The position numbers were made by a program, and so were the translations under genes. From Spongilla lacustris (lineage: Eukaryota; Porifera; Demospongiae; Spongillida; Spongillidae), in NCBI GenBank assembly GCA_949361645.1, contig OX442416.1, positions 10,979,869 to 11,043,868 on the forward strand: DNA of 64,000 nucleotides, read 5' to 3'. Shown here piece by piece: positions 5,541 to 54,560 of this stretch. Positions within the stretch are counted from its first letter, which is position 1, and each line of letters starts with the position of its first letter. The notes below the pieces were generated by a model. That model was not told where the DNA came from, did not search any database, and saw only the letters and a list, made by a program, of their open reading frames with translations.

Positions 5541-5974
5541 TTCCACGTGACGTGGCACGTTACTCGTTCTTCAATAATCTCAGTGTTTTTTTTGGGTTTT
5601 CAAGCACACACGGATAGCGGAGCGATCTGATCGGCCATGATTAGCGTTCAATCACAGCGTTTGTATTGAAAAGCGCATATCGTTTTCATATGCTAGAGCA
5701 GCAGTAAACGTGCCATCATAATTTATATCGATGTCCATCTGCCACATGTAGTTTCTGCGGTAATGTGCATATTTATCGCCATATTGTGGGAGAGGAACAC
5801 AGCAAAAAAAAAAAAAAGAATACCGCAAATCGAGACTTGATTTTACAAGTGATCTGACACCTATGCATACTGATACAGACTGATTACATGCAGCCTGCAT
5901 ACAATCGTTGATTTTCATATGATTTTCTTGCTGTGGAAAGCAATCTCGGCGCCTCTTTAATTTTCATCATTATA

Positions 5975-7340
5975 CAGGGTGATCCAAAAGTCGCGCAAAA
6001 TCTTTGAATTGGCATAACTCCAGAACTGAACATGGTAAAATTATGCTGTTTAAACCAAAAATCATGCCAATCATTAGCTTAAGTTATGAATGTGTAGTTA
6101 TTAAAAGTTAGTTATCGGTTTATTAAAAACATGCCAATGCTATGATCAACATTCAGTACCACCCAGGAAGTGTGTAAAAATTAATTTTTATAACTATTAA
6201 AATTACTTATCACGTGATCTATCTTATATGTGGTTTTTGTGGGGAAACCCCTGCTGAAAGTCAAGCTATTGCAAATTAATCACCAATATCACGGTGAATC
6301 TATGCAAAGAAGCATCCAATAATCGTGCCAATGAACAGCTTACCATCTTGCGTGGTGACTAACGAAGCCAAACGTTTAAAACGGAGTTGATTAGTTTCTG
6401 TTAATTGACATTGTTAAAAGCTAACTTTGAATTATCAGACCTGTAGAGGAAGCCGTACTCTAATTGTGGAACTAACTTTTGTATTTTCTCCTCCACTGGA
6501 AACAAAGTTACAAACTGTCCAAGTTTGGCAGCGCTTACGCATGCGCGGAATTATTTAACGAAAGTGGAACATGAATGTTTAGGTCTGCGTACGAGAGGTC
6601 TCACGTGAACACAATTGAATATTATCACATTCACGTGATACATTGCCGCTGTGCACAACACAGCCCCACCCTCCTAAACTATGCTTCTCTTCAACATCAT
6701 TGCGCGCACTTTTCATTCGCCTGCGCAAATGTGACCCATCAGATGCATGGGCAAATATTGTAAAATCCAGTGTTATCAAAAATCCCCAAGCCGTGGCTAA
6801 CGAGCCTATGCTTCACTGAGTTGTTCATAAAAAAAAAAAAAAAGCAGAGAATCTTTATTGGACGCAAATCGTACCATACCGCGTCATTCGTTTCACAGCA
6901 GTTAGCTAGCTGTACTGGTTTTAATAACAAACCGTACTAGGTGTGCACCATTTCAATTCGAACGTCATTTCAAATAGGCCTACCTGCGCACGTACAAAGG
7001 CGGGAGGTGAACTTAAGCAACAAGGCAGCTTAGTACAGCGCTGCAGCTACACTAGTGCATGCAGCCGCGTGGTCCAGAACGTGCTTCATCAAAGACGCTA
7101 GAGTACGTACGTACACATGCACGCGCATAGGTAAGTATGGGTTCAGAAATTATGTAGCATATTCGTTCATGTTACAGACAGAATTCGTAGAAAGCAGGGT
7201 CGCTACGAGCAGGACACTTGTACGAACCCAAAAGCAACTGGAGCAGCTTGCTCTGCAATGTCCTACCACACTAACTAAGGTTCGTGTACGTGCGTGCCGG
7301 CCTCGACAGGCCTACCTGCTGTATACGTAGTCACTCTGCC
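5975..7340. repeat. Left unique terminal arm of the foldback element
   Basis: This 1.37-kb segment is the reverse complement of 21372-22737 with no difference that I noticed. It contains short internal palindromes (for example TCACGTGA at both sides of 6601-6640), a poly-A run at 6829-6843 and no credible gene. Peptides up to 91 residues are possible but read the same on both arms, so they carry no independent coding evidence. Confidence 0.85.
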
Positions 7341-10300
7341 TCCACCTGGACTGGAAGGTCGGGGTCTCTCCGTCTCACTTGGAGAAAAGGTCTCTCTACC
7401 CGACTGGAAGAGAGGCGTCTCTCTACCTGACTGGAAAGCAGGGGTCTCTCTACCTGACTGGAAGGCAGGGGTCTCTCTACCTGACTTGAAAAGAGGGGTC
7501 TCTCTACCTGACTGGAAGGCAGGGGTCTCTCTACCTGACTGGAAAGAGAGGGGTCTCTCTACCTGACTGGAAAGAGAGGGGTCTCTCTACCTGACTGGAA
7601 CTGAAGGATGATCTCTGCCTGACACAGAGAGAGGGGGGTCTCTCTATTTGACAGAGAGAGAATACTTTTTTCTGTCTCACCCAGAGAGGGGTCTCTGTAC
7701 CTGACAGGAAGAGAGGGGTCTCTCTACCTGACTGGATGTTAGGGGTCTCTCTAATACCTGACTGGAACTGAAGGATGATCTCTGCCTGACACAGAGAGAG
7801 GGGTCTCTCTATCTGACAGAAAGAGATCTGTCTCAGTCAGAGAGGGTTCTGTCAATCTGTCTGGAAGAGAAGGGTCTCTCTACCTGACTGGAAGAGAGGA
7901 GTCTCTCTACCTGACTGGAACTGAAGGATGATCTCTGCCTGAGGGGTCTCTTAATTTGACAGAAAGTAAATCCTTTTTCTGTCTCACTCAGAGAGGGGTC
8001 TCTCTACCTGACTGGAAGGAAAGGGTCTCTCTGTCTCACTCAGAGACGGGGGTCTCTCTACCTGACTGGAACTGAAAGGTGATCTCTGCCTGACACAGAG
8101 AGAGGGGTCTCTCTGTCTGATAGAAAGAGAATGATTGTTCTGTCTCACTCAGAGAGGGGTCTCTCTACCTGACTGGAAGGGATGGTTTCTCTGTCTCACT
8201 TGGAGATAAGAGTCACTCTACCTGACTTGAAGACACGGGTCTCTCTACCTGACTGGAAGAGAAGGGTCTCTCCAAGACAGGGGTCTCTGTACCTGACTGA
8301 AAAAGACAGGTCTCTCTACTGGACTGGATAAGTAGGGTCTCTCTACCTGACTGGAAGAGAGGGGTCTCTGTACCTGACTGGAAGTATGGGGTCTCTCTAC
8401 CTGACTGGAACTGAAGGATGATCTCTGCCTGACACAGAGAGAGGGGTCTCTCTATCTGACAGAAAGAGAATGCTTTTTCTGTCTCAGTCAGAGAGGGTTC
8501 TCTCTATCTGACAGAAAGAGAATGCTCTTTCTTTCTCACTCAGATATGGTTCTGCCTATCTGTCTGGAAGAGAAGGGTCTCTCTACCTGACTGGAAGAGA
8601 GGAGTCTCTCTACCTGATTGGAACTGAAGGATGATCTCTGCCTGACACACAGAGAGGGGTCTCTCTATTTGACAGAGAGAATGCTTTTTCTGTCTCACTC
8701 AGTGAGGGGTCTCTCTACCTGACTGGAAGAGAGGTGTCTCTGTACCTGAGTCTCTCTACCTGACTGGAACTGAAGAATGATCTCTGCCTGAGGGTTCTCT
8801 CTATTTGACAGAAAGAAAATGCTTTTTCTGTCTCACTCAGAGAGGGGTCTCTCTACCTGACTGGAAGAGAAAGGTCTCTCTGTCTCACTCAGAGACGGGG
8901 GGGTCTCGCTTCTTGACTGGAACTGAAAGGTGATCTCTGCCTGACACAGAGAGAGGGGTCTCTCTATCGGACAGAAAAAGAATGATCTTTCTGTCGCACT
9001 CAGAGAGGGGTCTCGCTACCTGACTGATAGAGAGAGATCTCTCTACCTGACTGGAAAAGAGGGGTCTCTCTACCTGACTGGAGGAGAGGGGTCTCTTTAC
9101 CTGACTAGAAGAGTGGGGTCTCTCTACCTGACTGGATCTCTGCCTGAGAGGTCTCTTAATTTGACAGAAAGAAAATGCTTTTTCTGTCTCACTCAGAGAG
9201 GAGTCTCTCTACCTGACTGGAAGGGAGGGGTTTCTCCATTTCACTTGGAGAGGAAGGTCTCTTTACCTGACTGGAAGAGAATGGTCTCTCTGTCTCACTC
9301 AGATACGGGGGTCTGTCTTCCTGACTGGAACTGAAAGGTGATCTCTGCCTGACACAGAGAGAGAGGTCTCTCTGTCTGACAGAAAGAGAGTGATCTTTCT
9401 GTCTCACTCAGAGAGGGGTTTCTCTACCTGACTAGAAGAGATGGTCTCTCCGTCTCACTTGGAGATAAGAGTTACTCTACCTCACTGGATTACAGTGGTC
9501 TCTCTACCTTACTGGAAGAGAAGGGTCTCTCAGACAGGGGTCTCTGTACCTGACTGGAAGAGAGGGATCTCTCTACCTGGCTGGAAGAGAGGAGTCTCTC
9601 CACCTGACTGGAACTGAAGGATAATCTCTGCCTGAGGGTTCTTTTAATTTGACAGAAAGAAAATGCTTTTTCTGTCTCACTCAGAGAGGGGTCTCTCTAC
9701 CTGACTGGAAGGGATGGGTCTCTCCATATCACTAGGAGAGGAAGGTCTCTTTAACTGACTGGACGTAAATGGTCTCTGTCTCACTCAGAGACGGTGGTCT
9801 CTCTATCTGACTGGAACTGAAAGGTGATCTCTACCTGACTTGAACTGAAAGGTGATCTCTGTCTGACACAGAGAGAGGGGTCTCTGTCTGACAGAAAGAA
9901 AATGCTTTTTCTGTCTCACTCAGAGAGCGGTCTCTCTACCTGACTGGAAGTGAGGGATCTCTCTGTGTGACTCACACAGAGGAGTCTATCTGCTGCCCTG
10001 ATACAGACAGGTCGGTCTCTCTACCCGACTGGAAGGGATGGTCTCTCCGTCTCACTTGGAGATAAGAGTCACTCTACCTGACAGGAAGAGATGGGTCTCA
10101 CAGACAGGGGTCTCTGTACCTGACTGGAAAAGAAGGGTCTCTCTACTTGACTGGAAGAGCAGGGTCTCTCTAACTGACCGGAAGAGAGGGGTCTCTGTAC
10201 CTGACTGGATGAGTGGGGTCTCTCTACCTGACTGGAACTGAAGGATGATCTCTGCCTGACACAGAGAGAGGGGTCTCTCTATTTGACAGAAAGAGAATGT

Positions 10301-10932
10301 ATTTTCTGTCTCACTCTTAGAGGGGTCTCTGTACCTGACAGGAAGAGAGGGGTCTCTCTACATGACTGGAAGAAAGGGGTCTCTTTACCTGACTGGAAGA
10401 GAGGGATCTCTCTACCTGGCTGGAAGAGAGGAGTCTCTTAACCTGACTGGAACTGAAGGATAATCTCTGCCTGAGGGTTCTCTTAATTTGACAGAAAGAA
10501 GATGCTTTTTCTGTCTCACTCAGAGAGGGGTCTCTCTACCTGACTGGAAGGGAGGGGTCTCTCCATATCACTTGGAGAGGAAGGTCTCTTTACCTGACTG
10601 GAAGTGAATGTTCTCTCTGTCTCACTCAGAGACGGTGGTCTCTCTACCTGACTGGAACTGAAAGGTGATCTCTACCTGACTGGAACTGAAAGGTGATCTC
10701 TGTCTGACACAGAGAGAGGGGTCTCTCTGTCTGACAGAAAGAAAATGCTTTTTCTGTCTCACTCAGAGAGCGGTCTCTCTACCTGACTGGAAGTGAGGGA
10801 TCTCTCTGTGTCACTCACACAGAGGAGTCTATCTGCTGCCCTGATACAGACAGGTCGGTCTCTCTACCGGACTGGAAGGGATGGTCTCTCCGTCTCACTT
10901 GGAGATAAGAGTCACTCTACCGCACTGGAAGA

Positions 10933-11044
10933 GATGCCCTTCCCCACCAAGCCAACGTAGGAACAGGAGTCACACACGGCGTGTCTCCACCCGCCAAAGT
11001 AGACCATGCGGAAGGAAGGAACGTAGATGCGTATGACGGCGCTC
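10933..11044. repeat. Single-copy module embedded in the left satellite
   Basis: About 110 bp of non-satellite sequence starts at CCCTTCCCCACCAAGCCAAC and ends at GTATGACGGCGCTC. Its reverse complement is at 17615-17725 with one visible mismatch (A against G in CCACCAAG). It works as a positional marker that the two arms are homologous, not merely built from the same repeat. Confidence 0.85.
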
Positions 11045-12188
11045 ACAGACAGGGGTCTTTGTACCTGACTGGAAGAGAGGGGTCTCTGTACCTGACTGGA
11101 AGTATGGGGTCTCTCTACCTGACTGGAACTGAAGGATGATCTCTGCCTGACACAGAGAGAGGGGTCTCTCTATTTGATAGAAAAAGAATGCTTTTTCTGT
11201 CTCACTCAGAGAGGGGTCTCTCTATCTGACAGAAAGAGAATGCTCTTTCTTTCTTACTCAGATAGGGTTCTGTCTATCTGTCTGGAACAGAAGGGTCTCT
11301 CTACCTGACTGGAAGAGAGGAGTCTCTCTACCTGACTGGAACTGAAGGATAATCTCTGCCTGACACACAGAGAGGAGTCTCTCTATTTGACAGAAAGAGA
11401 ATCCTTTTTCTGTCTCACTCAGAGAGGGTTCTGTCTATCTGTCTGGAAGAGAAGGGTCTCTCTACCTGACTGGAAGAGAGGAGTCTCTCTACCTGGCTGG
11501 AAGAGAGGTGTCTCTGTACCTGACTGGAAGAGAGGAGTCTCTCCTCCTGACTGGAACTGAAGGATGACCTCTGCCTGAGGGATCTCTCTATCTGACAGAA
11601 AGAAAATGCTTTTTCTGTCTCACTCAGAGAGGGGCGTCTCTACCTGACTGGAAGGGAGGGCTCTCCCCATTTCACTTGGAGTGGAAGGTCTCTCTACCTG
11701 ACTGGAAGAAAGTGGTCTCTCTGTCTCACTCAGAGACGGGGGTCTTGGTCTCTCTATCTGACAGAAAGAGAATGATCTTTCTGTCTCACTCAGAGAGGGG
11801 TCTCTCTACCTGACTGGAATAGAGGGGTCTTTCTACCTGACTGGAAGAGAGGGGTCTCTCTACCTGACTGGAAGAGAAGTGTTTCTCTACCTTACTGGAA
11901 AAGAAGGGTCTCTCTACCTGACTGAAAGAGAGGGGTCTCTCAACCTGACGGAAAGAGAGGGGTCTCTCTACCTGACAGAAAGAGAGAGGTCTCTCTACCT
12001 GACTGGAAGAGAGGGGTCTCTCTACCTTACTGGAATAGAAGGGTCTCTCTAACTGACTGGAAGAGAAGGCCGAAGGGTCTCTGTGTCTAACTCAGATACA
12101 GGGGTCTTTGTACCTGTCTGGAAAAAAGGTGTCTCCCTACTTAACTGGAATAGAGAGGTCTCTCTACAGGACTGGAAGAGAGGGATCT

Positions 12189-12480
12189 CTCTATAGACAC
12201 AAAGACCCTTCGCGTCCAGTAAAGTAGAGAGACCCCTCTCTTCCAATGAAATAGAGAGACCCCTCTCTTCCAGTCAGGTAGAGAGACCCCTCTTTTCAAG
12301 TCAGGTCGACAGACCCCTGTATTCAAGTCAGGTATACCTGACTGGAATAGAGAGGTCTGTCGACCTGACTTGAAAAGAGGGGTCTCTCTACCTGACTGGA
12401 AGAGAGGGGTCTCTCTACCTGACTGGAACTGAAGGATGATCTCTGCCTGACACGCAGAGAGTGGTCTCTCTATTTGACAG
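12189..12480. repeat. Local inversion of satellite units with a palindrome centred near 12334
   Basis: Within the forward array about 145 bp of units (12189-12333) run in reverse and meet the forward units at CAAGTCAGGTATACCTGACT, giving a short perfect centre. The inverted stretch mirrors the units just to its right, including the rare GTCGAC-containing unit. It is a secondary inversion inside one arm. Confidence 0.8.
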
Positions 12481-13412
12481 AAAGTGAATGCTTTTTCTGT
12501 CTCACTCAGAGAGGGGTCTCTATACCTAACAGGAAGAGAGGGATCTCTCTACTGGACTGGAAGATAGGGGTCTCGTAATATTACTGGAAGAGAGGGGTCT
12601 CTGTACCTGACTGGAAGAGAGGGGTCTCTCCACCTGACTTGAAAAGAGGTGTCTCTCTATCTGACTGGAAGAGAGGGCTCTCTCTACCTGACTGGAAGAG
12701 AGCGGTCTCTCTACCTGACTGGAAGAGAGAGGTCTGTCGACCTGACTTGAAATGAGGGGTCTCTCTACCTGACTGGAAGAGAGGGGTCTGTCTACCTGAC
12801 TTGAAAAGAGAGGTCTCTCTACCTGACTGGAAGAGTAAGGTCTCTCTAGCTGACTTGAAGAGAGGGTTCTCTCTGTTTCACGCAGAGATAGAAATCCTTC
12901 TGGCTCTGTCATGCAAAGGTGTCTATCTACCTGTCTGGTCTCTCTACTTCACTGAAAGAGAATGGTCCCTATGTCTCACTCAGAGAGAGGGGTCTCTCTA
13001 CCTGACAGGAAGAGTGGGATCTATCTGTGTCACTCAGACAGAGGAGTCTATCTGATTCCCTGGTACAGACAGGTCGGTCTCTCTATGTCTCACTTGGAGA
13101 TAAGAGTCACTCTACCTGACTGGAAGAGAGGGGTCTCACAGACAGAGGTCTCTGTACCTGACTGGAAAAGAGGGGTCTCTGTACTTGACTGGAAGAGTGG
13201 GGTTTCTCTACCTGACTGGAAGGGAGGGGTATCTCCATTTCACTTGGAGAGGAAGGTCTCTCTAACTGACTGGAAGAGAATGGTCTCTCTGTCTCACTCA
13301 GAGGCAGGGGTCTCTGTACCTGACTGGAAGAGAATGGTCTATCTTTCTCACTCGGTGATGGGGGTCTCTGTAACTGACTGGAAGAGAGGGGTGTCTCTAC
13401 CAGACTGAAATA

Positions 13413-14645
13413 GATTGTGGAGAGTTGTCAGTGTTATTTTTGTTGTTTGGTAAGGTTTGATCGAGGCATGCTGAATAGGGTAGGTTAACTTTCCTGCAGC
13501 ACTTTTTGAGTGTTTGTATTGGTTCCTGCCAAAATAATTGGTCCTTATTTCCTGTGCTTTTCACAGGCTTGAATTGAAGTTTATTTTTTTGGTCCTATAA
13601 GAAGGATATAATTTTTTTATATCTCCAGATGTATTTGTGTCAGTGTATTAATGTAAGTATCTGTGTTCTGTGAGCATGTAATTGTGATAAAGTTTCAGTT
13701 TATTTGTTTATGTATTTGTTTGTGAAAATAGTGTAGTTTAAAGTATCTGTCATTTACACACACTTATGTGTGTTCTAAATTAGTACTATGCAAGCTTAAC
13801 TTTGTGCATAGGAGCATAAGAAGACTCAGATCTACATTTGGTTTCTTACCAATAAAGCCCTGCAGTGTCATAATCAATGCAAATTATTCATAGAGGTCAT
13901 GGAGAGGTGTTTCAAGCCCCTCCTACTGTCTACTACTAGACATCAAAGGGATACCCACTTGCTTACTTTCACTTCCTCTCTTTTGACTCACAATACCCCT
14001 ATGCACACACTTTCCCAGGAGGAGGAAGGAAAAAGGCTCATACCTACCACACACATGCATACCCACCTCCACAGACATGATTAAACCCCCCCACAATGCA
14101 TGTAACAACTATTTTTATGCTTAAATATTCTCACTTCTGCCCCCCTCTCCACTGTACCTATCAATGCCACCCTTTCTAGATCTTTAGTTCCCTGCCCGGC
14201 CTCCCATCTCGAAGGCAGAGAGGTTTATCTGTCTAACAGTTAAACGAGGTCCCTCTGAGTGTTAGCACAGAGAGAGTGGTACTGCTAGAACCCAATACAT
14301 GTAGCTCCTTTGGTACACAATTTCACAGCAGGAGATGTTCCTATACCATGTACATGTACATGTATAACAATAACACTTCATCTGGCAGTTTCTAAAGATT
14401 GATGTGTTAATTTAATACTCTACATACACAAAACACAGTTAGAGTCATGTGACCCTGACTACACTCCACCATGTACTATGGTTGGTGGCAGAGGAAAGGT
14501 TTAGTGTCTCCAGTCCCTTCTTCCTCCATCACTGGAGGAGAAGCATGGTCCTAGTGTGGTATAGACAACATACGATCATACTTCTCTACCAGGTTCTCCA
14601 CGTTGGGCTGCAGGTACGCAATTATAACACCACTGTCTCCTGAAG
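13413..14645. other. Unique spacer at the centre of the foldback element
   Basis: About 1.23 kb of ordinary complexity lies between the two opposing satellite arrays. It has no gene that I can recognise; the longest open peptides are about 60 residues. It contains AATAAA near 13851. Any lost transposase or captured host DNA would be expected here. Confidence 0.7.
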
Positions 14646-17600
14646 AGGGAGTAGGAGACTCTTCTCATCCAGTCAGGTAGAGAGACCCCTCTCTTCCAGT
14701 CCGGTAGAAGCACCCCTCCCTTCCAGTCAGGTAGAGAGACCTCTCTCGTCCAGTCAGGTAGAGAGACCCCTCTCTTCCAGTCAGGTAGAGAGACCCCTCT
14801 CTTCCATTCAGGTAGTGAGACACGTCTCTCCCAGTTAAGTAGAGAGACCCCTCTCTTCCAGTCAGGTACAGACACCCCTGTCTCCGAGTAAGACAGATAG
14901 ACCATTCTCTTCCAGTCAGGTACAGAGACCCCCGTCTCTGAGTGAGACGGAGAAACCAATCTCTTCCAGTCAGGTAGAGAGACATTACTCTCCAAGTGAA
15001 ATGGAGAGACCCCTCCTTTCCAGTCAAGTAGAGAGACCCCTCTCTTCCAATCATGTGTAGAGACTGAACTCTCTGTACCAGAGCAGCAGATAGACTCCTC
15101 TGTCTGAGTGACACAGACAGACCCCTCTCTTCCAGTCAGGTACAGAGACTCCTCCCTTTCAATCAGGTAGAGAGACTCTTCTTTTCCGGTCATGAAGAGA
15201 GACCCCTCTCTGAGTGAACAGAAAAAGCATTTTCTTTCTGTCAAATAGAGAGACCCCTCAGGCAGAGATCATCGTTCAGTTCTGGTCAGGTAGAGAGACC
15301 CCACACTTCCAGTCAGTTAGACAGACCCCTCTCTTCCAGTCAGGTAGAGAGACCCCTCTTTTCAAGTCTGGTAGAGAGACCCAACTCTTCCAGTAAGGTA
15401 GAGAGACCCCTCTTTTCCAGTCACACCTCTTTTCAAGTCAGGTAGAAAGACCCAACTCTTCCAGTCAGGTAGAGAGACTCCTCTCTGAGTGAGAAAGAAA
15501 GAGCATTTTCTTTCTGTCAATTAGAGAGACCCCTCTCTCAGTGTCAGGCAGAGATCATCCTTCAGTTCCAGTCAGGTACAGAGACCACTCTCTTCCAGTC
15601 AGGTAGAGAGACCCTTCTCTTCCAGGCAGATAGACAGACACGTCTCTGAGCGAGACAGACAGAGCATTCTCTTTTATGTCAGATAGAGAGACCCCTCTCT
15701 CTGTGTCAGGCAGAGATAATCCTTCAGTTAAAGTCAGGTAGAGAAAACCCACACTTCCAGTCAGGTACAGAGACCTCTCTTGTCCGGTCAGGGAGAGAGA
15801 CCCTTCTCTTCCAGTCAAATAGAGACACCCCTCTTTTCCAGTCAGTTACAGAGACCCCTGTCTCTGAGTGAAACAGAGAGACCATTCTCTTCCAGTCAGG
15901 TAGAGAGACCTTCCTCTCCAAGTGAAATGGAGAGACCCCTCTCGTCCAGTCATACATAGAGACCGACCTCTCTGTACCGGAGCAACAGATAGACTCCTCT
16001 GTCAGAGTGACACAGAAAGACCCCTTACTTCCAGTCAGGTACAGAGACTCCTCCCTTTCAATCAGGTAGAGAGACTCCTCTTTTCCGGTCATGAAGAGAG
16101 ACCCCTCTCTGAGTGAGACAGAAAAAGCATTTTCTTTCTGTCAGGTAGAGACTCCTCTTTGCGGTCATGAAGAGAGACCCCTCTCTGAGTGAGACAGAAA
16201 AAGCATTTTCATTCTGTCAAATGGAAAGACCCCTCACTCTGTGTCTGGCAGAGATCATCGTTCAGTTCCGGTCAGGTAGAGAGACCCCTCAGTTAGATCG
16301 ACCCCACTCTTCCAGTCAGGTAGAGAGACCCCTCTTTTCAAGTCAGGTAGAGATACCCAACTCGTCCAGGTAGGTAGAGAGACCCCTCTCTTCCAGTCAG
16401 GTAGAAAGACCCCTCTTTTCAAGTAAGGTAGAGAGAGACCCCTCTCGTCCAGTTAGGTAGAGAGACCCTTCTCTTCCTAACAAATAGACAGAACCCTCTC
16501 TGAGTGTGACAGAAGGAGCATTCTCTTTTATGTCACATAGAGAGGCCCCTCTCTGTGTGTCAGGCAGAGATCATCCTTCAGTTCCATTCAGGTAGAGAAA
16601 CCCCACTCTTCCAGTCAGATACAGAGACCTCTCTCTTCCGGTCAGGGTGAGAGATCCCTAACTTCCAGTCAGGTACAGAGACCCCTCTCTTCCAGTCAGG
16701 TAGAGAGACCCCTCTCTTCCAGTTAGGTAGAGAGACCCTACTATTACAGTCAGGTAGAGAGACCCCTCTCTTCCAGTCAGGTAGAGAGACCGCTCTCTTA
16801 TCCAGTCAGGTAGAGAGATCCCTCTCTATCAGTCAGGTAGCGAGACCCCTCTCTGAGTGAGACAGAAAGATCATACACTAGATAGAGAGACCCCTCTCTC
16901 TGTATCAGGCAGAGATCACCTTTCAGTTTCAGTCAGGAAACGAGACCCCCCATCTCTGAGTGAGACAGAGAGACCTTCCTCTTCCAGTCAGGTAGAGAGA
17001 CCTTTCTTTCCAAGTTAAATGAAGAGACTCCTCCCTTCCAGTCAGGTAGAGCGACCCCTCTATCAGTGAGACAGAAAAAGCATTTTCTTTCTGTCAAATA
17101 GAGAGGCAGAGATCATCCTTCAGTTCCAGTCAGGTGAGAGACTCCTGCCTTCCAGTCAGGTACAGAGACACGAGACCCCTATCTTTCAGTCAGGTAGAGA
17201 GACCCCTCTCTTCCTGTCAGGTACAGAGACCCCTCTCTGAGTGAGACAGAAAAAGCATTCTCTTTCTGTCAAATAGAGAGACTCCTCTCTGTGTGTCAGG
17301 CAGAGATTATCCTTCAGTTCCAGTCAGGTAGAGAGACTCCTCTCTTCCAGTCAGGTAGAGAGACCCTTCTGTTCCAGACAGATAGACAGAACCCTATCTG
17401 AGTAAGAAAGAAAGAGCATTCTCTTTCTGTCAGATAGAGAGACCCCTCTCTGAGTGAGACAGAAAAAGCATTCTTTTTCTATCAAATAGAGAGACCCCTC
17501 TCTCTGTGTCAGGCGGAGATCATCCTTCAGTTCCAGTCAGGTAGAGAGACCCCACTCTTCCAGTCAGGTACAGAGACCCCTCTCTTCCAGTCAGGTACAG

Positions 17601-20600
17601 AGACCCCTGTCTGTGAGCGCCGTCATACGCATCTACGTTCCTTCCTTCCGCATGGTCTACTTTGGCGGGTGGAGACACGCCGTGTGTGACTCCTGTTCCT
17701 ACGTTGGCTCGGTGGGGAAGGGCATCTCTTCCAGTGCGGTAGAGTGACTCTTATTTCCAAGTGAGACGGAGAGACCATCCCTTCCAGTCCGGTAGAGAGA
17801 CCGACCTGTCTGTATCAGGGCAGCAGATAGACTCCTCTGTGTGAGTGACACAAAGAGATCCCTCACTTCCAGTCAGGTAGAGAGACCGCTCTCTGAGTGA
17901 GACAGAAAAAGCATTTTCTTTCTGTCAGACAGAGAGACCCCTCTCTCTGTGTCAGACAGAGATCACCTTTCAGTTCCAGTCAGGTAGAGATCACCTTTCA
18001 GTTCCAGTCAGGTAGAGAGACCACCGTCTCTGAGTGAGACAGAGAGAACATTCACTTCCAGTCAGGTAAAGAGACCTTCCTCTCCAAGTGATATGGAGAG
18101 ACCCCTCCCTTCCAGTCAGGTAGAGAGACCCCTCTCTGAGTGAGACAGAAAAAGCATCTTCTTTCTGTCAAATTAAGAGACCCCTAAGGCAGAGATTATC
18201 CTTCAGTTCCAGTCAGGTAGAGAGACTCCTCTCTTCCAGCCAGGTAGAGAGATCCCTCTCTTCCAGTCAGGTAAAGAGACCCCTTTCTTCCAGTCATGTA
18301 GAGAGACCCCTCTCTTCCTGTCAGGTACAGAGACCCCTCTAAGAGTGAGACAGAAAATACATTCTCTTTCTGTCAAATAGAGAGACCCCTCTCTCTGTGT
18401 CAGGCAGAGATCATACTTCAGTTCCAGTCAGGTAGAGAGACCCCACTCATCCAGTCAGGTACAGAGACCCCTCTCTTCTGGTCAGTTAGAGAGACCCTGC
18501 TCTTCCAGTCAAGTAGAGAGACCCTTCTTTTCCAGTCAGGTACAGAGACCCCTGTCTGTGAGACCCATCTCTTCCTGTCAGGTAGAGTGACTCTTATCTC
18601 CAAGTGAGACGGAGAGACCATCCCTTCCAGTCGGGTAGAGAGACCGACCTGTCTGTATCAGGGCAGCAGATAGACTCCTCTGTGTGAGTCACACAGAGAG
18701 ATCCCTCACTTCCAGTCAGGTAGAGAGACCGCTCTCTGAGTGAGACAGAAAAAGCATTTTCTTTCTGTCAGACAGAGACCCCTCTCTCTGTGTCAGACAG
18801 AGATCACCTTTCAGTTCAAGTCAGGTAGAGATCACCTTTCAGTTCCAGTCAGATAGAGAGACCACCGTCTCTGAGTGAGACAGAGACCATTTACGTCCAG
18901 TCAGGTAAAGAGACCTTCCTCTCCTAGTGATATGGAGAGACCCATCCCTTCCAGTCAGGTAGCGAGACCCCTCTCTGAGTGAGACAGAAAAAGCATTTTC
19001 TTTCTGTCAAATTAAAAGAACCCTCAGGCAGAGATTATCCTTCAGTTCCAGTCAGGTGGAGAGACTCCTCTCTTCCAGCCAGGTAGAGAGATCCCTCTCT
19101 TCCAGTCAGGTACAGAGACCCCTGTCTGAGAGACCCTTCTCTTCCAGTAAGGTAGAGAGACCACTGTAATCCAGTGAGGTAGAGTAACTCTTATCTCCAA
19201 GTGAGACGGAGAGACCATCTCTTCTAGTCAGGTAGAGAAACCCCTCTCTGAGTGAGACAGAAAGATCAATCTCTTTCTGTCAGACAGAGAGACCTCTCTC
19301 TCTGTGTCAGGCAGAGATCACCTTTCAGTTCCAGTCAGGAAGACAGACCCCCGTATCTGAGTGAGACAGAGAGACCATTCTCTTCCAGTCAGGTAAAGAG
19401 ACCTTCCTCTCCAAGTGAAATGGAGAAACCCCTCCCTTCCAGTCAGGTAGAGAGACTCCTCTCTGAGTGAGACAGAAAAAGCATTTTCTTTCTGTCAAAT
19501 TAAGAGACCTCTCAGGCAGAGATCCAGTCAGGTAGAGAGACCCCACTCTTCTAGTCAGGTACAGAGACCCCTCTCCTCCAGTCAGGTAGAGAGACCCCTC
19601 TTTTCCAGTCAGGTAGAGAGATCTCTCTCTATCAGTCAGGTAGCGAGACCCCTCTCTGAGTGCGACAGAAAGATCATTCTTTTTCTGTCCGATAGAGAGA
19701 CCCCTCTCTCTGTGTCAGGCAGAGATCACCTTTCAGTTCCAGTCAAGAAGCGAGACCCCCCGTCTCTGAGTGAGACAGAGAGACCTTTCTCTTCCAGTCA
19801 GGTAGAGAGACCCCTCTCTGAGTGAGACAGAAAAAGCATTTTCTTTCTGTCAAATAGAGAGAACCCTCAGGCAGAGATCATTCTTCAGTTCCAGTCAGGT
19901 AGAGAGACTCAGGTACAGAGACACCTCTCTTCCAGCCAGGTAGAGAGACTCCTCTCTTCCAGTCAGGTAGAGAGACCCTTCTCTTCCAGACAGATAGACA
20001 GAACCCTCTCTGAGTGAGACAGAAAAAGCATTCTCTCTGTCAAATAGAGAGACCCCTCTCTGTGTGTCAGGCAGAGATCATCCTTCAGTTCCAGTCAGGT
20101 AGAGAGACTCCTCTCTTCCAGTCAGGTAGAGAGACCCTTCTCTTCCAGACAGATAGGCAGAACCATATCTGAGTGAGAAAGAAAGAGCATTCTCTTTCTG
20201 TCAGATAGAGAGAACCCTCTCTGACTGAGACAGAAAAAGCATTCTCTTTCTGTCAGATAGAGAGACCCCTCTCTCTGTGTCAGGCAGAGATCATCCTTCA
20301 GTTCCAGTCAGGTAGAGAGACCCCATACTTCCAGTCAGGTACAGAGACCCCTCTCTTCCAGTCAGGTAGAGAGACCCTACTTATCCAGTCCAGTAGAGAG
20401 ACCTGTCTTTTTCAGTCAGGTACAGAGACCCCTGTCTTGGAGAGACCCTTCTCTTCCAGTCAGGTAGAGAGACCCGTGTCTTCAAGTCAGGTAGAGTGAC
20501 TCTTATCTCCAAGTGAGACAGAGAAACCATCCCTTCCAGTCAGGTAGAGAGACCCCTCTCTGAGTGAGACAGAACAATCATTCTCTTTCTATCAGACAGA

Positions 20601-21371
20601 GAGACCCCTCTCTCTGTGTCAGGCAGAGATCACCTTTCAGTTCCAGTCAGGTAGAGAGACCCCCGTCTCTGAGTGAGACAGAGAGACCCTTTCCTTCCAG
20701 TCAGGTAGAGAGACCCCTCTCTGAGTGAGACAGAAAAAGGATTTACTTTCTGTCAAATTAAGAGACCCCTCAGGCAGAGATCATCCTTCAGTTCCAGTCA
20801 GGTAGAGAGACTCCTCTCTTCCAGTCAGGTAGAGAGACCCTTCTCTTCCAGACAGATTGACAGAACCCTCTCTGACTGAGACAGATCTCTTTCTGTCAGA
20901 TAGAGAGACCCCTCTCTCTGTGTCAGGCAGAGATCATCCTTCAGTTCCAGTCAGGTATTAGAGAGACCCCTAACATCCAGTCAGGTAGAGAGACCCCTCT
21001 CTTCCTGTCAGGTACAGAGACCCCTCTCTGGGTGAGACAGAAAAAAGTATTCTCTCTCTGTCAAATAGAGAGACCCCCCTCTCTCTGTGTCAGGCAGAGA
21101 TCATCCTTCAGTTCCAGTCAGGTAGAGAGACCCCTCTCTTTCCAGTCAGGTAGAGAGACCCCTCTCTTTCCAGTCAGGTAGAGAGACCCCTGCCTTCCAG
21201 TCAGGTAGAGAGACCCCTCTTTTCAAGTCAGGTAGAGAGACCCCTGCCTTCCAGTCAGGTAGAGAGACCCCTGCTTTCCAGTCAGGTAGAGAGACGCCTC
21301 TCTTCCAGTCGGGTAGAGAGACCTTTTCTCCAAGTGAGACGGAGAGACCCCGACCTTCCAGTCCAGGTGGA
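14646..21371 (-). repeat. Right satellite array, inverted orientation
   Basis: The same 26-27-bp unit runs in reverse (TTCCAGTCAGGTAGAGAGAC). Its outer part (about 17600-21371) pairs with the left array; the inner part is more diverged. A block of about 0.9 kb is duplicated in tandem inside it: the unit with TTTTCCGGTCATGAAGAGAG occurs at 15182 and 16081. An extra stretch near 19920-20030 relative to the left arm explains much of the 53-bp offset. Confidence 0.9.
17615..17725. repeat. Single-copy module embedded in the right satellite
   Basis: This is the inverted partner of 10933-11044 and differs at one visible base. Confidence 0.85.
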
Positions 21372-22737
21372 GGCAGAGTGACTACGTATACAGCAGGTAG
21401 GCCTGTCGAGGCCGGCACGCACGTACACGAACCTTAGTTAGTGTGGTAGGACATTGCAGAGCAAGCTGCTCCAGTTGCTTTTGGGTTCGTACAAGTGTCC
21501 TGCTCGTAGCGACCCTGCTTTCTACGAATTCTGTCTGTAACATGAACGAATATGCTACATAATTTCTGAACCCATACTTACCTATGCGCGTGCATGTGTA
21601 CGTACGTACTCTAGCGTCTTTGATGAAGCACGTTCTGGACCACGCGGCTGCATGCACTAGTGTAGCTGCAGCGCTGTACTAAGCTGCCTTGTTGCTTAAG
21701 TTCACCTCCCGCCTTTGTACGTGCGCAGGTAGGCCTATTTGAAATGACGTTCGAATTGAAATGGTGCACACCTAGTACGGTTTGTTATTAAAACCAGTAC
21801 AGCTAGCTAACTGCTGTGAAACGAATGACGCGGTATGGTACGATTTGCGTCCAATAAAGATTCTCTGCTTTTTTTTTTTTTTTATGAACAACTCAGTGAA
21901 GCATAGGCTCGTTAGCCACGGCTTGGGGATTTTTGATAACACTGGATTTTACAATATTTGCCCATGCATCTGATGGGTCACATTTGCGCAGGCGAATGAA
22001 AAGTGCGCGCAATGATGTTGAAGAGAAGCATAGTTTAGGAGGGTGGGGCTGTGTTGTGCACAGCGGCAATGTATCACGTGAATGTGATAATATTCAATTG
22101 TGTTCACGTGAGACCTCTCGTACGCAGACCTAAACATTCATGTTCCACTTTCGTTAAATAATTCCGCGCATGCGTAAGCGCTGCCAAACTTGGACAGTTT
22201 GTAACTTTGTTTCCAGTGGAGGAGAAAATACAAAAGTTAGTTCCACAATTAGAGTACGGCTTCCTCTACAGGTCTGATAATTCAAAGTTAGCTTTTAACA
22301 ATGTCAATTAACAGAAACTAATCAACTCCGTTTTAAACGTTTGGCTTCGTTAGTCACCACGCAAGATGGTAAGCTGTTCATTGGCACGATTATTGGATGC
22401 TTCTTTGCATAGATTCACCGTGATATTGGTGATTAATTTGCAATAGCTTGACTTTCAGCAGGGGTTTCCCCACAAAAACCACATATAAGATAGATCACGT
22501 GATAAGTAATTTTAATAGTTATAAAAATTAATTTTTACACACTTCCTGGGTGGTACTGAATGTTGATCATAGCATTGGCATGTTTTTAATAAACCGATAA
22601 CTAACTTTTAATAACTACACATTCATAACTTAAGCTAATGATTGGCATGATTTTTGGTTTAAACAGCATAATTTTACCATGTTCAGTTCTGGAGTTATGC
22701 CAATTCAAAGATTTTGCGCGACTTTTGGATCACCCTG
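21372..22737. repeat. Right unique terminal arm of the foldback element
   Basis: It is the reverse complement of 5975-7340, ending in GGATCACCCTG followed by TA. See the whole-element entry for interpretation. Confidence 0.85.
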
Positions 22738-22739
22738 TA

Positions 22740-23292
22740 TATCACAAGGAAAGTGACTTAAAACGAATATTTCATATCCCAATTTTGCTATTTGTGACCC
22801 AAATGAAGCATGTGCGATAGGTCCGGCGCACATGGCAGCATTCCGCAACAATTTTACGCCCGAAAGTATTTGCTCATCTAACCGCACGGTGCAAATACTT
22901 TTCTTGTAGTGCAATTTTTTATTGTACATATAAATAAAGGCACTAAAACTAGCATAGTTTTCAGTAATGGCGGCTTTAATACTTACATATACTATCAAAA
23001 GCTTCCGCGCTTCGCGCGGGAGGGGCATGTCCCCCTCCCACACCCACACCCTTTTGGGGACCCACGCCCGCTTTTTTATAACTTTTATTAACCGTCCCCC
23101 CCTACATCCGCGGCGATCCGCCCCTGAATGGAGGAGCTTGTGTCAATACGAGCCACCCACGCTGCTGGGAAATGGTGGTCATCCAATATACACCTCAAAT
23201 GGCCAGTTGCACTTGTATTGTTTCGTCCAATCCGCCATTTTAATACTATAGAAACCAGTTCTAATTGCTATATCATATCTTGATCTATAAGT
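22740..23292. other. Flank of the foldback element, repeat-rich, no gene
   Basis: No reading frame looks coding. The part at 23001-23120 is GC-rich, with CGCGCTTCGCGCG and GGCGATCCGCCCCTG, resembling the short G/C-tract repeats elsewhere in the window. Confidence 0.5.
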
Positions 23293-33500: not shown

Positions 33501-36500
33501 CAGTGACAGGGAGCGTGTGTCCCTGAGCAGGGCCAGGATGACCAGGGTCCTCACCCCACAGACCCAGGAGAACCCCATCTTCTTCCACCTCACCGATGTG
33601 AACCCGAGTGCTTACATCAGTGCCATCAACCAGTCTGCTGAGGTCGGCTTTGAGATGTTCATATTCAGCTTTGGCAGTGCCTTTGACCTGGAGAACATTG
33701 ACCCGGAGTATGTGGCCGAGATCAAGCTGTATGTTAACTACGCCCAGGAAAGAGGCATCGAGGTTGGAGGGTGAGTGTGTGTGTGTGGGGGGGGGGGGGT
33801 GCGTTCACATGTACGTACATATTTATGTATGTATTTACATGTACATGTACATGTACGTGTACAAATCAGCTGTACATACATGTACATGTATGCAAGTACA
33901 TGTGTATACATGTATCATTATTTCTATTATGGGTGGTGTGATTGCATGTACATGTATATTCCATACTTGTCGGGTGTTTACGTTTGCCATCAGCTGTACT
34001 GTGCATTTGTGTGAGTGAATTATGTACATGTAGACTACATGTACATAGGGGACTTATATACATGTACATGTATGTCGTTTTGGCTCAATATAATCGCCAT
34101 TGGGGAAGGGGGTGGGAGGGGAAGGGACATGCATGTACCCCTTGGACAATTTCAGTAATGGTGGATTCAGTTGGTGGAGGCCCCTGGAGTGATTTGCCAT
34201 GGTGTGCACATGCCAGTGAGTTTAAGTACAGGGTGTAAATGGAACCATGGATTTGACCCCACAGCATACACAAGTACAGGGTGTAAATGGGACCATGGAT
34301 TTGATCTTAAAACAGACTCAAGTACAGGGTGTAAATGGGAGCATGAGTTTGACCCACAACAGACACAAGTACAGGGTGTAAATGGGACCAATGAATTTAC
34401 CCCACAACAGACACAAATACAGAGTGCAAATGGGACCATGGATTTGATCAAAAGTACAGGGTGTAAATGGGACCAATGAATTGACCCTAAATAAACTCAA
34501 GTACAGGGTGTAAATGGGACCATAGGTTTGACCCTAAAACAGACTCAAGTACAGGGTGTAAATGGGACCATAGGTTTGACCCTAAAACAGACTCAAGTAC
34601 AGGGTGTAAATGGGACCATAGGTTTGACCCTAAAACAGACTCAAGTACAGGGTGTAAATGGGAGCATGAGTTTGACCCACAACAGACAAAGTAAAGGGTG
34701 TAAATGGGACCATGGATTTCATCACAAGTACAGGGTGTAAATGAGACCATGGATTTGACCCCACAGCATACTCAAGTACAGGGTGTAAATGGGATCATGG
34801 ATTTACCCCACAACAGACACAAGTACAGGTATAAATGGGACCATAGATTTGACCATAAACAGACTCAAGTACAGGGTGTTAATGGGACCATGGATTTGAC
34901 CCCACAACAGACACAAGTACAGGGTGTAAATGGGACCATGGATTTGATTCCACAACAGACACATACAACATGTATATCCCACAATAGACACAACAAGTAC
35001 AGGGTGTAAATGGGACCATGGATTTGACCCCACAACAGACACAAGTACAGGGTGTAAATGGGACCATGGATTTCATCACAAGTACAGGGTGTAAATCAGA
35101 CCATGGATTTGACCCCACAACAGACAAAAGTACAGGTCTAAATGGGAGTATGAGTTTGACCCCATAATAGACACAAGTACAGGGTGTAAATGGGACCATG
35201 CATTTGACCCCACAACAGACAGAAGTACAGGGTTAAATGGGAGCATGGATTAGATCTCACAACAGACACAAGTACAGTGTGTAAATGGGACCAAGGATTT
35301 GATCACACGTACAGGGTGTAAATCGGACCATGGATTTGATCACAAGTACAGGGTGTAAATCGGACCATGGATTTGATCACAAGTACAGGGTGTAAATCGG
35401 ACCACAGATTTGAACCCACAAAAGACACAAGTACAGGGTGTAAATGTGACCATGGATTTGATCACAGGTACAGGGTGTAAATGGGACCATGGATTTGACT
35501 CCGCAACAGACACATACAACATGTATATCCCACATACCACACACACGTGTATGATGACAGATCGTTACCCAGCAGTGAATGCGCTAACATCAAATCAGCC
35601 CTGCATTCTGTCGACAAGTTTTATACTCGAAGTCTAAAACAGCCATTTTTACCCACAGTGAAAAAAAAAAAAAAAAGAACAAAAATGTTAAGAACTGCTC
35701 TCGAATATTGTTCTCGAACCATTGCTCTCTACTGCACAACCATACAAGGGTGTACATGGGTAACTGTTCCAATTATATATGTTGCCCCATCCTGCATGTA
35801 GTTTTGTGTGTGTACCCATATGTACATGTATTGTTTCTGTGTGTTTACGTGCCATGTTGGATTCTTCAGGTATGACCTGATCTGTGAGGCCCGCGGCAAT
35901 GGAAGCTATGGGGGAAACGTTGGATACCAGTGGGACGTTGTCAACCCATCGAATGGGCTGCTTGGAGGGGATGCCTGCTTTGCTTCAGGCTGGTATGTGT
36001 GTGTGTGTGTGTATGTGTGTGTGCATGTGTGTGTGTGTGTGTGTGTGTGTGTAGTATGGCAAAAGGGGGAGGCCCTACCCCCACATAATAGTTAACAGAG
36101 TAGCCACACCCCACATAATAGTTCACAGAGTAGCCACACCCCACATAATAGTTAAGAGTAGTCACACCCCACGTAATAGTTAAGAGTAGTCACACCCCTG
36201 CATGATAGTTAACAAACCACCCGTACTTAATAGTTAACAGAGTAGCCACACCCCTACATATTAATTAACAGACCCAATGACAGAGATGGGAAATGCAATT
36301 TTGCATGTTTTTTGCATTGGTGTTCAATTTAATGTATAAGAAGTCATAGGTACTCGTAGAAAATACTGCTAGTTGGACCGTTCAAAGTTCTGTGACTTAT
36401 GTCGCAATTTTTTTGGTCCGCGATACCCATTGATAGGTACTTGACAAAAAAAAATTCAAAGTAACATTCACACATACATGTAACTACTTAAACCAGTGTA

Positions 36501-51615: not shown

Positions 51616-51876
51616 ATGGAGTGCAATAGTGCTGCCGGTCCGCTGCACATTGCTGATGATCATGCAGGCTCTCAGTTGCTATACAGAGTACTAAGGGTAA
51701 GTGAAAATGTAACTCGAGTCTACAAACAACGGAACGATGCGTGGCGTTTTTACATCATACTCGTGGCTGCTGTAACTGATGATAATCCTGGTACATCGTT
51801 GCCGACGTCATTTCCGCATGGGAATGAAGCGGACAGCGCAGAATATGTGTTGCAGTTACGAGACGTTCAGAAGTAG
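51616..51876 (+). CDS. Small ORF in front of the transposase
   Basis: Eighty-six residues from an ATG at 51616: MECNSAAGPLHIADDHAGSQ, LLYRVLRVSENVTRVYKQRN, then a hydrophobic FYIILVAAV, ending at a stop 27 bp before the transposase ATG. It is in a different frame. It could be an accessory protein of the element, a 5' exon of the transposase, or chance. No family is recognised. Confidence 0.35.
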   Translation: MECNSAAGPLHIADDHAGSQLLYRVLRVSENVTRVYKQRNDAWRFYIILVAAVTDDNPGTSLPTSFPHGNEADSAEYVLQLRDVQK

Positions 51877-51905
51877 AAGCACTAACTGTTCAGTCACATT
51901 ATAGA

Positions 51906-54560
51906 ATGGTATGTGATTCCAGGGAGGTGGTTACATTTCCAGAGACCCATTTAACAAGTAGACATACATCTAGCTGCACAGCTGATAACTCTGCCAGTCA
52001 CGATTCAAGACTTCCAACTGCCGTTGAGATCGATTTAGCCTCCATGTCAGCAGGACCAAGCAAGAAGCCCAAAGGTAGTGCACATGAAAAGAAGCGGGCT
52101 ACAACTTTACACAAGCAACGAGAAAGAAAAAGGCACTCCAGAAAGGAAGAGGCTAAATCAAAATGGGAGGAGGCATGTGACAGCAGAAAGAAGATGATTA
52201 GTAAACTGGCTAATTTCTTAGAATCAAAGGATTGGAGCACTGTCTTGAACACTGCAGCTGGAGATTCACACTCACCATTTTGTGATGAAGAGGACATCCC
52301 TGTTACAGTAGATGATCTCTCAAAGGCGCAAGTTATGGATTTGACTATACGAGCATCATTGCTTCATCGCTTGTATACAGAGCTGAACAGTTTGAGACGA
52401 AAGTTGGAAAACATGTATGTTGTGGCTGAATGGTGCTCAATTCATGCTTGTCCAAAGGTTCATGCTAAGACACTTTTGCGTTGGAAGAGGGACTTTGAGT
52501 TGGGCGGTTTTACCTTCATACCCTCCAAGAAAGGGCGCCATCAGAGACCATGGATACTCACTGATGAAGCTTTCAAGATGAAAGCTAGAACTTTTATTAT
52601 GGAGAATGCTGCCCCAAAAGGAATACCCAATATGAAAGTTACTGACTTCCAGATATTTGTGAACACCGTCCTCCTAAAAGATGTTGATGTTCAGTCACTG
52701 AATGGTATTCGTGCTCCAATTTCCAAAGAGACTGCCCGGAAGTGGCTATACAAATTGGGTTGTACAAGCAAGTACATTTCTAGTGGTGTGTATTTTGATG
52801 GGCATGACCGAGAGGATGTACTTGAATATCGGGATAGCTGGCTTGCTCGAAGACAAGAGAGTGAAAAGTACATGCCTTTATATCTTCATATAAACATGCA
52901 TGAAGCAAAGGAACTTCTTTCCACACTGGATCCTGAAAGTGGTGAAAAGGTGGAATGCAATGAGATGCTCATTTCTGAGGTAACACTTCCTAAGGAACTA
53001 TGGGACAATCAAGAGGTGCCTGTACTGGAATTTCATGTAGATGATGTGCGGTTTGACTTTTCCAAGTTACGGATGGACAAGGATAAGTATCCATTAGGAG
53101 GATTGTGGAGCAAAAAGATTGATTGGACTCATCCAAGCTCTAAAAGGCTAATTCATGTTGTCCAAGATGAAAGCATTTACAAAAGTTATGCTGCTCAAAG
53201 TAAGGCTTGGTTCCTCAAAGATCAGCAGGTCATCAGGAAAAAGGGAGAGGGTAGAGGTGTGATGGCAAGTGGCTTTCTCACAGAAGTATCAGGAATGATT
53301 CTGCTCTGCAATGAAGATCTGCAGCACATAAATAACATGAGGACAATAAAAGGTAAGTGGTGCAAAATTGTCCCTATGACATAAATTTAATATAATCATT
53401 TTTCAGGAAAGGAGAAGCTCACATCTGTTGTGCCTTTGGATCCACATGGATTCTCCTATCTATTTATGAGGCTTTTCAACTACGGCACAGGAAATGGCAA
53501 GGAGGGATACTGGGATCACAAGCATATGATTAAGCAGGTGGATGAGTTCATTGATGTTTTTGAGCTGAAGTTTCCTGGCTGTACTGCAGACATCTCATTT
53601 GATTGGAGTTCTGGCCATGCGGCTTACAGTGAAGATGCTTTGGTGCTGTCAAACTTCAATACAAGGTACGGAGGGAAACCAGGCTCTAATGCCTATAAGG
53701 TAAGAGAGAAGACTGTAATCCTAGAGGAGTTTGGACCCAAATCGCATTTTAGGCAAGGTGAAGAGCAGTATCTTTTTTTCAGAGAAGGTAATCTTCCTCC
53801 ATTTTACTGCCAAAAGTCTAAATGCAAGCCGACTGACTATATTGGAAAGCCAAAGGGGTTAAAGCAAATATTGTGGGAACGTGGATTATGGAAAGATGGA
53901 ATGACAAGGGATGGGAAAAGGACAATCAAAGGGCAGGTAATAGTTGATAAAAATCTCAGCATGGAAGAGGCTATCATCAAGTGTCGAGACTTCAAAGAAG
54001 CTGTAAATGATTCAGCTCTTGCACAATACATTAGAAGTAGAGGGCACAAGTGTGATTTTACTCCCAAATACCATTGTGAGTGTTCTGCTATTGAATATTG
54101 CTGGGGACGGTCTAAGGTTTTCATGAAGATGTTTTGCAATTTCAACTTTTGTGACATGGTTAAACTTATACCTTCATCTCTGCTTGAGGATAATATTTCA
54201 CTATATACTACTCGAAAGTATTTTCGAATGACACGTGACTATCAGAGACTCTACATGAGGAAAGTGATAGCATCTGAAGCTGTGAAGCAAGTTAAACAGT
54301 TCAAGTCACATCGAACAATTTTATTTTCTGAGTATCAGAATTTAGGGAAGAAGTTCAAACCATGGCACAAGAACAAGGTTCCCAGGGAAAAATGGATGAA
54401 GGAGAAACTTGCTGAGGAAGAGCTGTTACGTGATGGTCTGCAGCTATCTTCTGTTGACCTAGCCCATCTAGATAGTGAAATAGACAGTGGTCAAGAAGAT
54501 AGTGCATATGAGTTACAGGATTCTGATGACGACTACAGAGTCAGTGAAGATGATGGATGA
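51906..54560 (+). CDS. DDE transposase (Tc1/mariner-IS630-like lineage), 866 residues, one intron
   Basis: Exon 1 is 51906-53352 and exon 2 is 53407-54560. The 54-bp intron is GTAAGT..TTTTTCAG with phase 1, and the junction reads TIK-GKEKLTS. Residues 59-100 are strongly basic (KKRATTLHKQRERKRHSRKE). The middle holds a helix-turn-helix-like stretch (HAKTLLRWKRDFELGG). The catalytic triad is readable: Asp421 in HVVQDESIYKS, Asp548 in SFDWSSGHAAYSEDAL and Glu712 in YHCECSAIEYCWGRSK, matching the family pattern (HDE, D..SxH, E..P/AIE..W). The tail is acidic (DSEIDSGQEDS). The protein cuts and joins DNA at the element's TIRs. No frameshift or stop is seen, so it may be active. The ATG at 51906 is the first in frame; later Met codons are possible. 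Confidence 0.92.

Follow-up and report, generated by a model that had tools for sequence, protein, structure and literature searches.

A 64,000-bp stretch of the Spongilla lacustris genome (C2:10979869-11043868), which we refer to as the window, carries a large foldback element of 16,763 bp between positions 5975 and 22737. Considered jointly, the evidence makes it highly probable that this is a nonautonomous foldback of the Tc1/mariner superfamily, one that inserts at TA, retains the remnant of a transposase-bearing core as its spacer, is mobilized by the transposase of a sister family, and has arms that are homogenized with one another.

Architecture, dispersal, and target sites

When checked at the level of single bases, the element begins with C at 5975 and ends with G at 22737. 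A first-pass annotation made from the sequence alone had given the same limits, along with an exact end shared by both sides and a TA beyond each tip, and it was correct to the base. It also described a layered plan that we recovered: each arm consists of a unique terminal inverted repeat of 1,366 bp (END) and, inward of it, 6.1 or 6.7 kb of a 26-27-bp satellite in which repeat finding revealed higher-order periods of 54, 81, and 205 bp, and the arms enclose a single, asymmetric spacer of 1,240 bp (Table 1). The accompanying claim of near-identical inverted arms requires one amendment. The arms are exact inverse copies over 2,643 bp, but farther inward they are separated by one indel of ~54 bp in addition to the single-base differences that were thought to be the only ones. 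Apart from that indel, arm-to-arm identity in 500-bp blocks is 99.0-99.6% from 2.5 to 5 kb, drops to 97.6% at 5.0-5.5 kb, and then falls to 86% and finally to ~74%. Consistent with the earlier observation that no transposase lies inside, no transposase-like open reading frame (ORF) was found in the element, and comparison of nine ORFs with Pfam returned nothing below E 0.06. A scan of the window against Rfam gave no match at the gathering threshold.

The element belongs to a family that is dispersed throughout the 248.6-Mb assembly (51 contigs) in which we searched. A 22-bp pattern made of TA and the tip has 65 occurrences on one strand and 70 on the other, and there are 135 exact 28-base tips genome-wide; for both patterns, the reversed control gave 0 occurrences. 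The tips are of two types, 77 of type A, to which the window element belongs, and 58 of type B. These differ by one base, the first 27 being the same. Pairing neighboring tips in facing orientation at distances of up to 30 kb, including three exact matches to TA plus tip that fit neither 28-base pattern and were added by hand, produced 52 inverted pairs (29 A and 23 B) and left 34 tips unpaired. The A pairs have a median length of 15.9 kb (range, 11.5-17.5 kb) and the B pairs a median of 16.0 kb (range, 5.0-25.9 kb), the shortest pair of exact tips measuring 5.0 kb. In its own genome, the window END yielded 41 match rows (40 of 191 candidates scored). The spacer was located at 37 loci (40 of 98 candidates scored), of which 28 are inside A pairs, 8 are on the inward side of a lone A tip, and 1 is at neither. 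The ENDs of B are ~78% identical to those of A overall; in the first 500 bp, identity is 85-91% in four 100-bp blocks and 79% in one. A candidate repeated motif, TGCCAAT, stands at positions 34 (inverted), 91, 158, and 352 of the A END, and B retains three of the four. Furthermore, repeat finding in two B copies (L040 and L053) identified a 180-bp satellite in the place of the 27-bp satellite of A.

Divergence inside A is ~2%. The left half of the window element, including the spacer, is collinear with and 97.3% identical to a copy that ends at C2:10270633 (L047), and the right arm matches an arm on C4 (L050) at 99.6-100% in 14 of the first 15 500-bp blocks, with 93.7% in the block that contains the indel. 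The near identity with the C4 arm suggests that the A family was recently active. Free satellite arrays were considered as a source of the arms and set aside: the 100 listed of 2,076 exact matches to the A satellite all fall in two A elements, and 99 of the 100 listed of 338 matches to the B satellite fall within, or next to, B elements or remnants of the transposase when read by eye. Elsewhere, at C7:583000-592800 (L041), three right-hand tips, two A and one B, stand in a row within 8 kb. The first of their ENDs is without its middle, and the second is represented by only 75 exact bases; behind both of these comes a 213-bp exact repeat.

Insertion at TA is documented both by the tips and by empty sites. 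In the range from C1 to C10:5.78 Mb, over which the tips were listed completely, 97 of 100 tips (A and B) have TA immediately outside, and the bases ahead of it favor ATA (A in 27, T in 34, and A in 29 of 41 flank rows, which include three duplicates). When the two flanks of the window element were joined, all 38 nonself matches ran across the junction with the element absent (40 scored among 180 candidates; the two remaining rows are the halves of the window copy itself). These matches trace a dispersed host repeat that the element entered. In three such empty sites examined at the base level (82-83% identity), the right part starts exactly at the right flank of the element in every case, with TA at the join in two and AA in the third. 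The step is carried, together with the tip counts, by the copy at C2:298912-313972, where a related stretch in the element's own right flank constitutes a 97.3% identical empty site that is gapless at the join and holds a single TA. Among the repeats related to the flank of a further copy (C1:27308310), one has a clean join. An argument against this reading can be made from the small indels just left of the join in the three base-level sites and from four other repeats related to the C1:27308310 flank, which are gapped or changed at the join. Nevertheless, the paralogous empty sites show that the element inserts at TA and that the TA is duplicated. Other genomic copies of the END and empty sites, the absence of which the first-pass annotation would have taken as evidence against a mobile element, were both found. 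Among the other flanks, the right flanks of the A elements at C1:17692312 and C2:4931077 start at corresponding places of another dispersed repeat (L014, L031, and L048), which aligns in both orientations.

A linked transposase and the origin of the A spacer

Type B elements carry a transposase. Starting from a 340-aa open frame in a 25-kb B copy (L054), we identified 34 loci of one transposase family (family 1). Of these, 20 lie within B pairs, 5 are next to a lone B tip, and 9 are at neither; many of the copies are broken. These loci, and 31 loci of a second family, were typed from 123 match rows with fragments merged by hand and the lower rows unused. Family 1 is present in 20 of the 23 B pairs, the other three being the three shortest, and the transposase-bearing pairs measure 14.7-25.9 kb. 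It was found in 0 of the 29 A pairs (119 of 187 candidates scored). Several B copies contain transposase frames that are free of stops. Specifically, the frame in L059 is complete from ATG to stop and encodes 357 aa, with D160, D251, and D293 and with 41 residues between the last two; it matches the Pfam entry DUF4817 above the cutoff and HTH_Tnp_Tc3_2 below it. The L054 transposase matches the catalytic domain of Sleeping Beauty (E 2.7e-9), and its three Asp residues align with those that we take to be the D, D, and E of that enzyme. Judged by its sequence, the B transposase is of the Tc1/mariner type with a DD41D triad. Because of this linked transposase and the TA, we class the element as Tc1/mariner.

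Two other accounts of the B elements were considered. One is that an ordinary mariner is nested in B. Weak inverted repeats do flank the transposase inside B (the best being 42 nt at 74%), which counts against our interpretation. Yet, inverted repeats are weak in the 0.8 kb downstream of it and the 1.7 kb upstream, a copy of the gene is found in 20 of the 23 B pairs, and the A spacer retains DNA from around it, so that nesting is not favored. The other account, a viral or Polinton-like giant element, is not favored either: a Tc1/mariner transposase is the only gene recognized in the ORF lists of the B copies that were read (the other ORFs were judged by eye), and the duplication is TA.

The spacer of A connects the two types. 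Three parts of it are related to DNA around the B transposase (Table 1). In the B core, the match to spacer positions 451-800 comes first, followed by the inverted match to 98-360, the gene, and the match to 1008-1234. The rearrangement can be read only in part, because the last segment also has a weaker inverted match (62%) upstream of the transposase. At the level of these alignments, the A spacer is shown to be a rearranged remnant of a transposase-bearing core. Type A appears to have arisen from such an element by loss of the gene and rearrangement of the core; its satellite is a different one, and its copies seem to have then multiplied as whole units. Under this interpretation, A would be a DD41D-type Tc1/mariner transposon that grew into a foldback of END, satellite, and spacer followed by the same parts inverted, with satellite arms that may have grown by tandem-repeat processes.

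Which transposase moves A is a separate question. The first-pass annotation had proposed a mover acting in trans, and the discovery of a transposase-bearing sister family makes that likely. A is probably moved by the B transposase, which would recognize ends that are identical over the outermost 27 bp and 79-91% identical per 100 bp over the first 500 bp. Several points weigh on the other side: no transposition event was observed, and with ends that differ by ~22%, the mover could be another transposase that is extinct or unscored. We regard it as unlikely that A depends on a non-B transposase, either a lost partner of its own or an unscored family, and that the shared tip reflects ancestry only. 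Such a mover would fit the difference between the ends, and A has made recent copies although no A-type transposase copy was found. It is at odds with A and B tips that differ by a single base in 28, with the absence of family-1 and family-2 loci from A pairs while several B frames are stop-free, and with a spacer that derives from a B-like core. The family-2 transposase, which is ~50% identical to that of family 1, was specifically rejected as a candidate, since none of its 31 loci is in any A or B pair. One member of that family (L060, C2:19008000-19010900) has a 404-aa open frame with the same kind of motif. No inverted repeat of at least 16 nt was found in the 0.7-0.96 kb on either side of it, and family 2 too may sit in large elements.

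Table 1. Positions in the window of the foldback element's parts and of the host repeat that it entered
Feature	Position	Strand	Basis
Dispersed host repeat entered by the element, left part	5834..5974	+	38 of 38 nonself matches to the joined flank cross the junction
Left TA target-site copy	5973..5974	.	Base-level check and empty sites
Left END, unique terminal inverted repeat of 1,366 bp with tip CAGGGTGATCCAAAAGTCGC	5975..7340	+	Identical to right END
Left part of exactly identical inverted stretch, 2,643 bp	5975..8617	+	
Left satellite, 6.07 kb of 27-bp monomers with higher-order periods	7341..13410	+	Collinear with other copies
Spacer, 1,240 bp	13411..14650	+	Genome copies
Spacer part (98-360) related to DNA directly upstream of the frame for the B transposase	13508..13770	-	65-77% in L054; orientation opposite to that of the remaining spacer
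Spacer part (451-800) related to DNA further upstream of the B transposase	13861..14210	+	66% overall, 91% in first 94 bp (L054)
Spacer part (1008-1234) related to DNA downstream of the B transposase	14418..14644	+	65-72% in L057
Right satellite, inverted, 6.72 kb	14651..21371	-	Repeat finding, arm comparison
Right part of exactly identical inverted stretch	20095..22737	-	
Right END, inverted copy of 5975-7340	21372..22737	-	Arm comparison
Right TA target-site copy	22738..22739	.	Base-level check
Same host repeat, right part	22740..22873	+	Joined-flank matches

Homogenization of the two arms

The two arms of an element change in concert. A tree of ENDs was built from a nonrandom sample of 16 elements, made up of the 13 first-listed pairs and three size outliers; it excluded L029, which is diverged and has no mate, and the left arm of the element at C10:5515637, where the END is interrupted. 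With the element at C1:8147038 counted apart from the others, the two arms were sisters in 13 of 15 elements (14 of 16 when it is included). In addition, among changes private to one element in the 15 elements, 111 are common to both arms and 81 are in one arm. The ratio of shared to single changes varies, from 16 versus 2 at C1:17692312 to 27 versus 28 in a 5-kb element (C6:1138407) and 0 versus 8 at C1:31043765. In the element at C1:17692312, the arms are 99.8-100% alike for 1.5 kb and only ~79% alike after that. These data bear on the alternative that arms are alike through recent spread from one symmetric founder, without any copying between them. Low divergence inside A and the 81 changes confined to a single arm are what such a spread would leave behind. 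However, it predicts no private changes common to both arms, contrary to the 111 that we counted, and it leaves both the excess of shared changes and the loss of identity at C1:17692312 unaccounted for; we consider it improbable.

Comparisons among copies indicate where the agreement ends. Over the first 2.5 kb, the window arms are 100% identical to each other, compared to 98.3-100% with L047, 99.0-99.8% with the left arm of C1:31043765, and 99.8-100% with the C4 copy, which is almost as close as the element's own partner. More than 5.5 kb inward, the left arm is 94.5-99.6% identical to L047 versus 86% to 73% with its own partner. Based on these alignments, outer-arm sequence goes with the element and inner-arm sequence with the side. 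Among the copies examined, the arms agree over a stretch that includes the tip region and cease to do so farther in: at 1.5 kb in C1:17692312, ~4 kb in C1:31043765, and ~5 kb in the window. The tips are inexact in some elements; C1:31043765 and the 5-kb element differ between arms within the first 500 bp. This pattern would be the expected trace of copying tracts that include the tip, to which faster satellite turnover inside the arms contributes in a way that is inseparable here.

Several observations weigh against homogenization. The arms of C1:31043765 and of the 5-kb element are not sisters, two of the sister nodes are weakly supported (0.39 and 0.52), and 81 private changes are confined to one arm. 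The cross-element control for private changes (mean of 0.0 in 72 pairs) is weak, with homogenized partners masking shared changes. Beyond 3 kb inward, the right arm of the window element has more in common with the C4 arm, at 99.6-100% as far as 7.5 kb, than with the other arm of its own element, where identity declines from 99.6% to 73%. Last, polishing of long palindromes can raise the apparent likeness of arms. Despite these points, the tree and the shared changes show that arms are homogenized within elements, as the first-pass annotation had supposed. The gene conversion that it invoked is one candidate for the mechanism. One arm would be copied onto the other over stretches that include the tip, most simply by fold-back-templated repair synthesis or gene conversion, while the inner satellite would keep its side-specific sequence.

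One copy deserves separate mention. In the A element at C1:8147038-8164013, the mirror runs past the tips, with agreement at all 3,022 of 3,022 positions covering 1.5 kb inside and 1.5 kb outside (L009/L010, C1:8145538-8165513), and it is gone at 2.75-3.0 kb out, where 70 of 250 positions agree. The flank was not found at full length elsewhere in the genome, and parts of it resemble dispersed repeats. Mirrored flanks were detected in none of 12 other pairs (65-92 of 300 positions). This copy may reflect a copying tract that extended into host DNA, an insertion at the center of a palindrome, or an assembly error. An assembly palindrome, in which a fold-back error created the inverted arms, could be argued for from this copy, with its mirror of at least 1.5 kb beyond the tips, and from the exact arm identity over 2.6 kb in the window. 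That explanation is hardly credible given the asymmetric spacer and the inner arms that are ~74% alike. It is also contradicted for the family by the 29 A and 23 B pairs and by the absence of mirrored flanks in 12 of the 13 pairs examined. As for homogenization itself, we tentatively raise the idea, doubtful as it is, that arm copying belongs to the life cycle of the element: after cleavage or replication stalling, a folded arm would template the other, with copying that runs out past the tip and at times enters the host DNA. If true, arm copying would keep both tips identical and functional, let the satellite arms grow, and be able to make host DNA palindromic, and the copy at C1:8147038-8164013 would be a snapshot of the process.

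The remainder of the window contains features that are separate from the element. On the minus strand, 57934-58998 is a single-frame gene for a 355-aa rhodopsin-type G protein-coupled receptor (Pfam 7tm_1, E 1.2e-12). On the plus strand, 51828-54557 holds two long frames in a common reading frame, separated by stops, which we take to be DDE-type transposase-like, an assignment left unconfirmed by Pfam, where they had no match. There is a tandem array of a 48-bp unit in ~29 copies at 34224-35514, and a near-perfect 26-bp array at 62998-63489 that appears by eye to be unrelated to the satellite of the element.

Comparison with known systems

Tc1/mariner elements are textbook compact transposons, and miniature inverted-repeat transposable elements (MITEs) are usually under 1 kb. 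The target duplications of FB and TU foldbacks are 8-9 bp. Against this background, our findings describe a recently spread family with members of 15-26 kb, in which the arms are mostly satellite and some transposase frames are stop-free. They show that elements of this superfamily are able to hold and spread arrays of satellite DNA, and that the two subfamilies each have an array of their own. In addition, the 52 paired copies amount to a natural experiment on the arm identity of foldbacks, in which tract length can be measured copy by copy.

The first-pass annotation compared the element to the FB and TU foldbacks, a likeness that holds for architecture and fails for kinship, given a TA in place of 8-10 bp and a Tc1/mariner DD41D transposase. 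Tetris, an FB-type foldback of Drosophila virilis with 8-10-bp target duplications, is described as having an outer flanking domain, a tandem-repeat domain, a variable middle, and no coding capacity, as seen here, with inverted repeats of up to 1,735 bp, repeats of ~220 bp, and no identified autonomous partner in the parts of that report available to us (PMC4079207). The sponge family differs in its TA and its linked mariner-type transposase. Galileo, of the P superfamily, likewise shares long inverted repeats, internal tandem repeats in one subfamily, and copies with and without transposase, and it differs in its 7-bp duplications, P-type transposase, and inverted repeats of up to ~1.26 kb, according to the portions consulted (PMC3573991). 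The flanking, tandem-repeat, and middle domains of our element are laid out as in both of these systems (PMC4079207, PMC3573991). Still, a true foldback of the FB, TU, or Galileo type, from the MULE or P superfamilies, is very improbable, as it is contradicted by the TA at tips and empty sites, where 7-10 bp would be expected, and by the Tc1/mariner DD41D identity of the linked transposase.

The B transposase bears the DD41D signature known from rosa and from the LTIR elements of aphids. As described for aphids, the rosa/DD41D group and the LTIR elements (DD40-41D) share a triad of Asp residues in which 41 residues separate the last two, a rosa tip (AAGGGTGTCTCAAAAAGAACGC...) loosely resembles that of the window element, and LTIR members have long (~460-bp) inverted repeats (PMC5490172). 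In the table rows consulted, the aphid elements measure 1.3-2.4 kb and their inverted repeats 27-32 or ~460 bp (PMC5490172), in contrast to the 14.7-25.9 kb of transposase-bearing sponge pairs, with their 1.4-kb END and inverted satellite. A Tc1/mariner element of Xenopus tropicalis with the internal satellite miDNA4 is likewise nonautonomous with satellite inside, and is listed as a MITE in the section of the report consulted (PMC9659126); at 16.8 kb, the window element is not a short deletion derivative of that kind. Size is of interest in its own right, as Sleeping Beauty integration is reported to fall as transposon length grows (PMC4229213, consulted in part). Literature searches with variants of the tip sequence gave no match, and among the titles and abstract openings listed by further searches, none described a giant, large, or foldback mariner element. 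What our study adds to these known systems is a foldback plan within a superfamily whose members are generally small.

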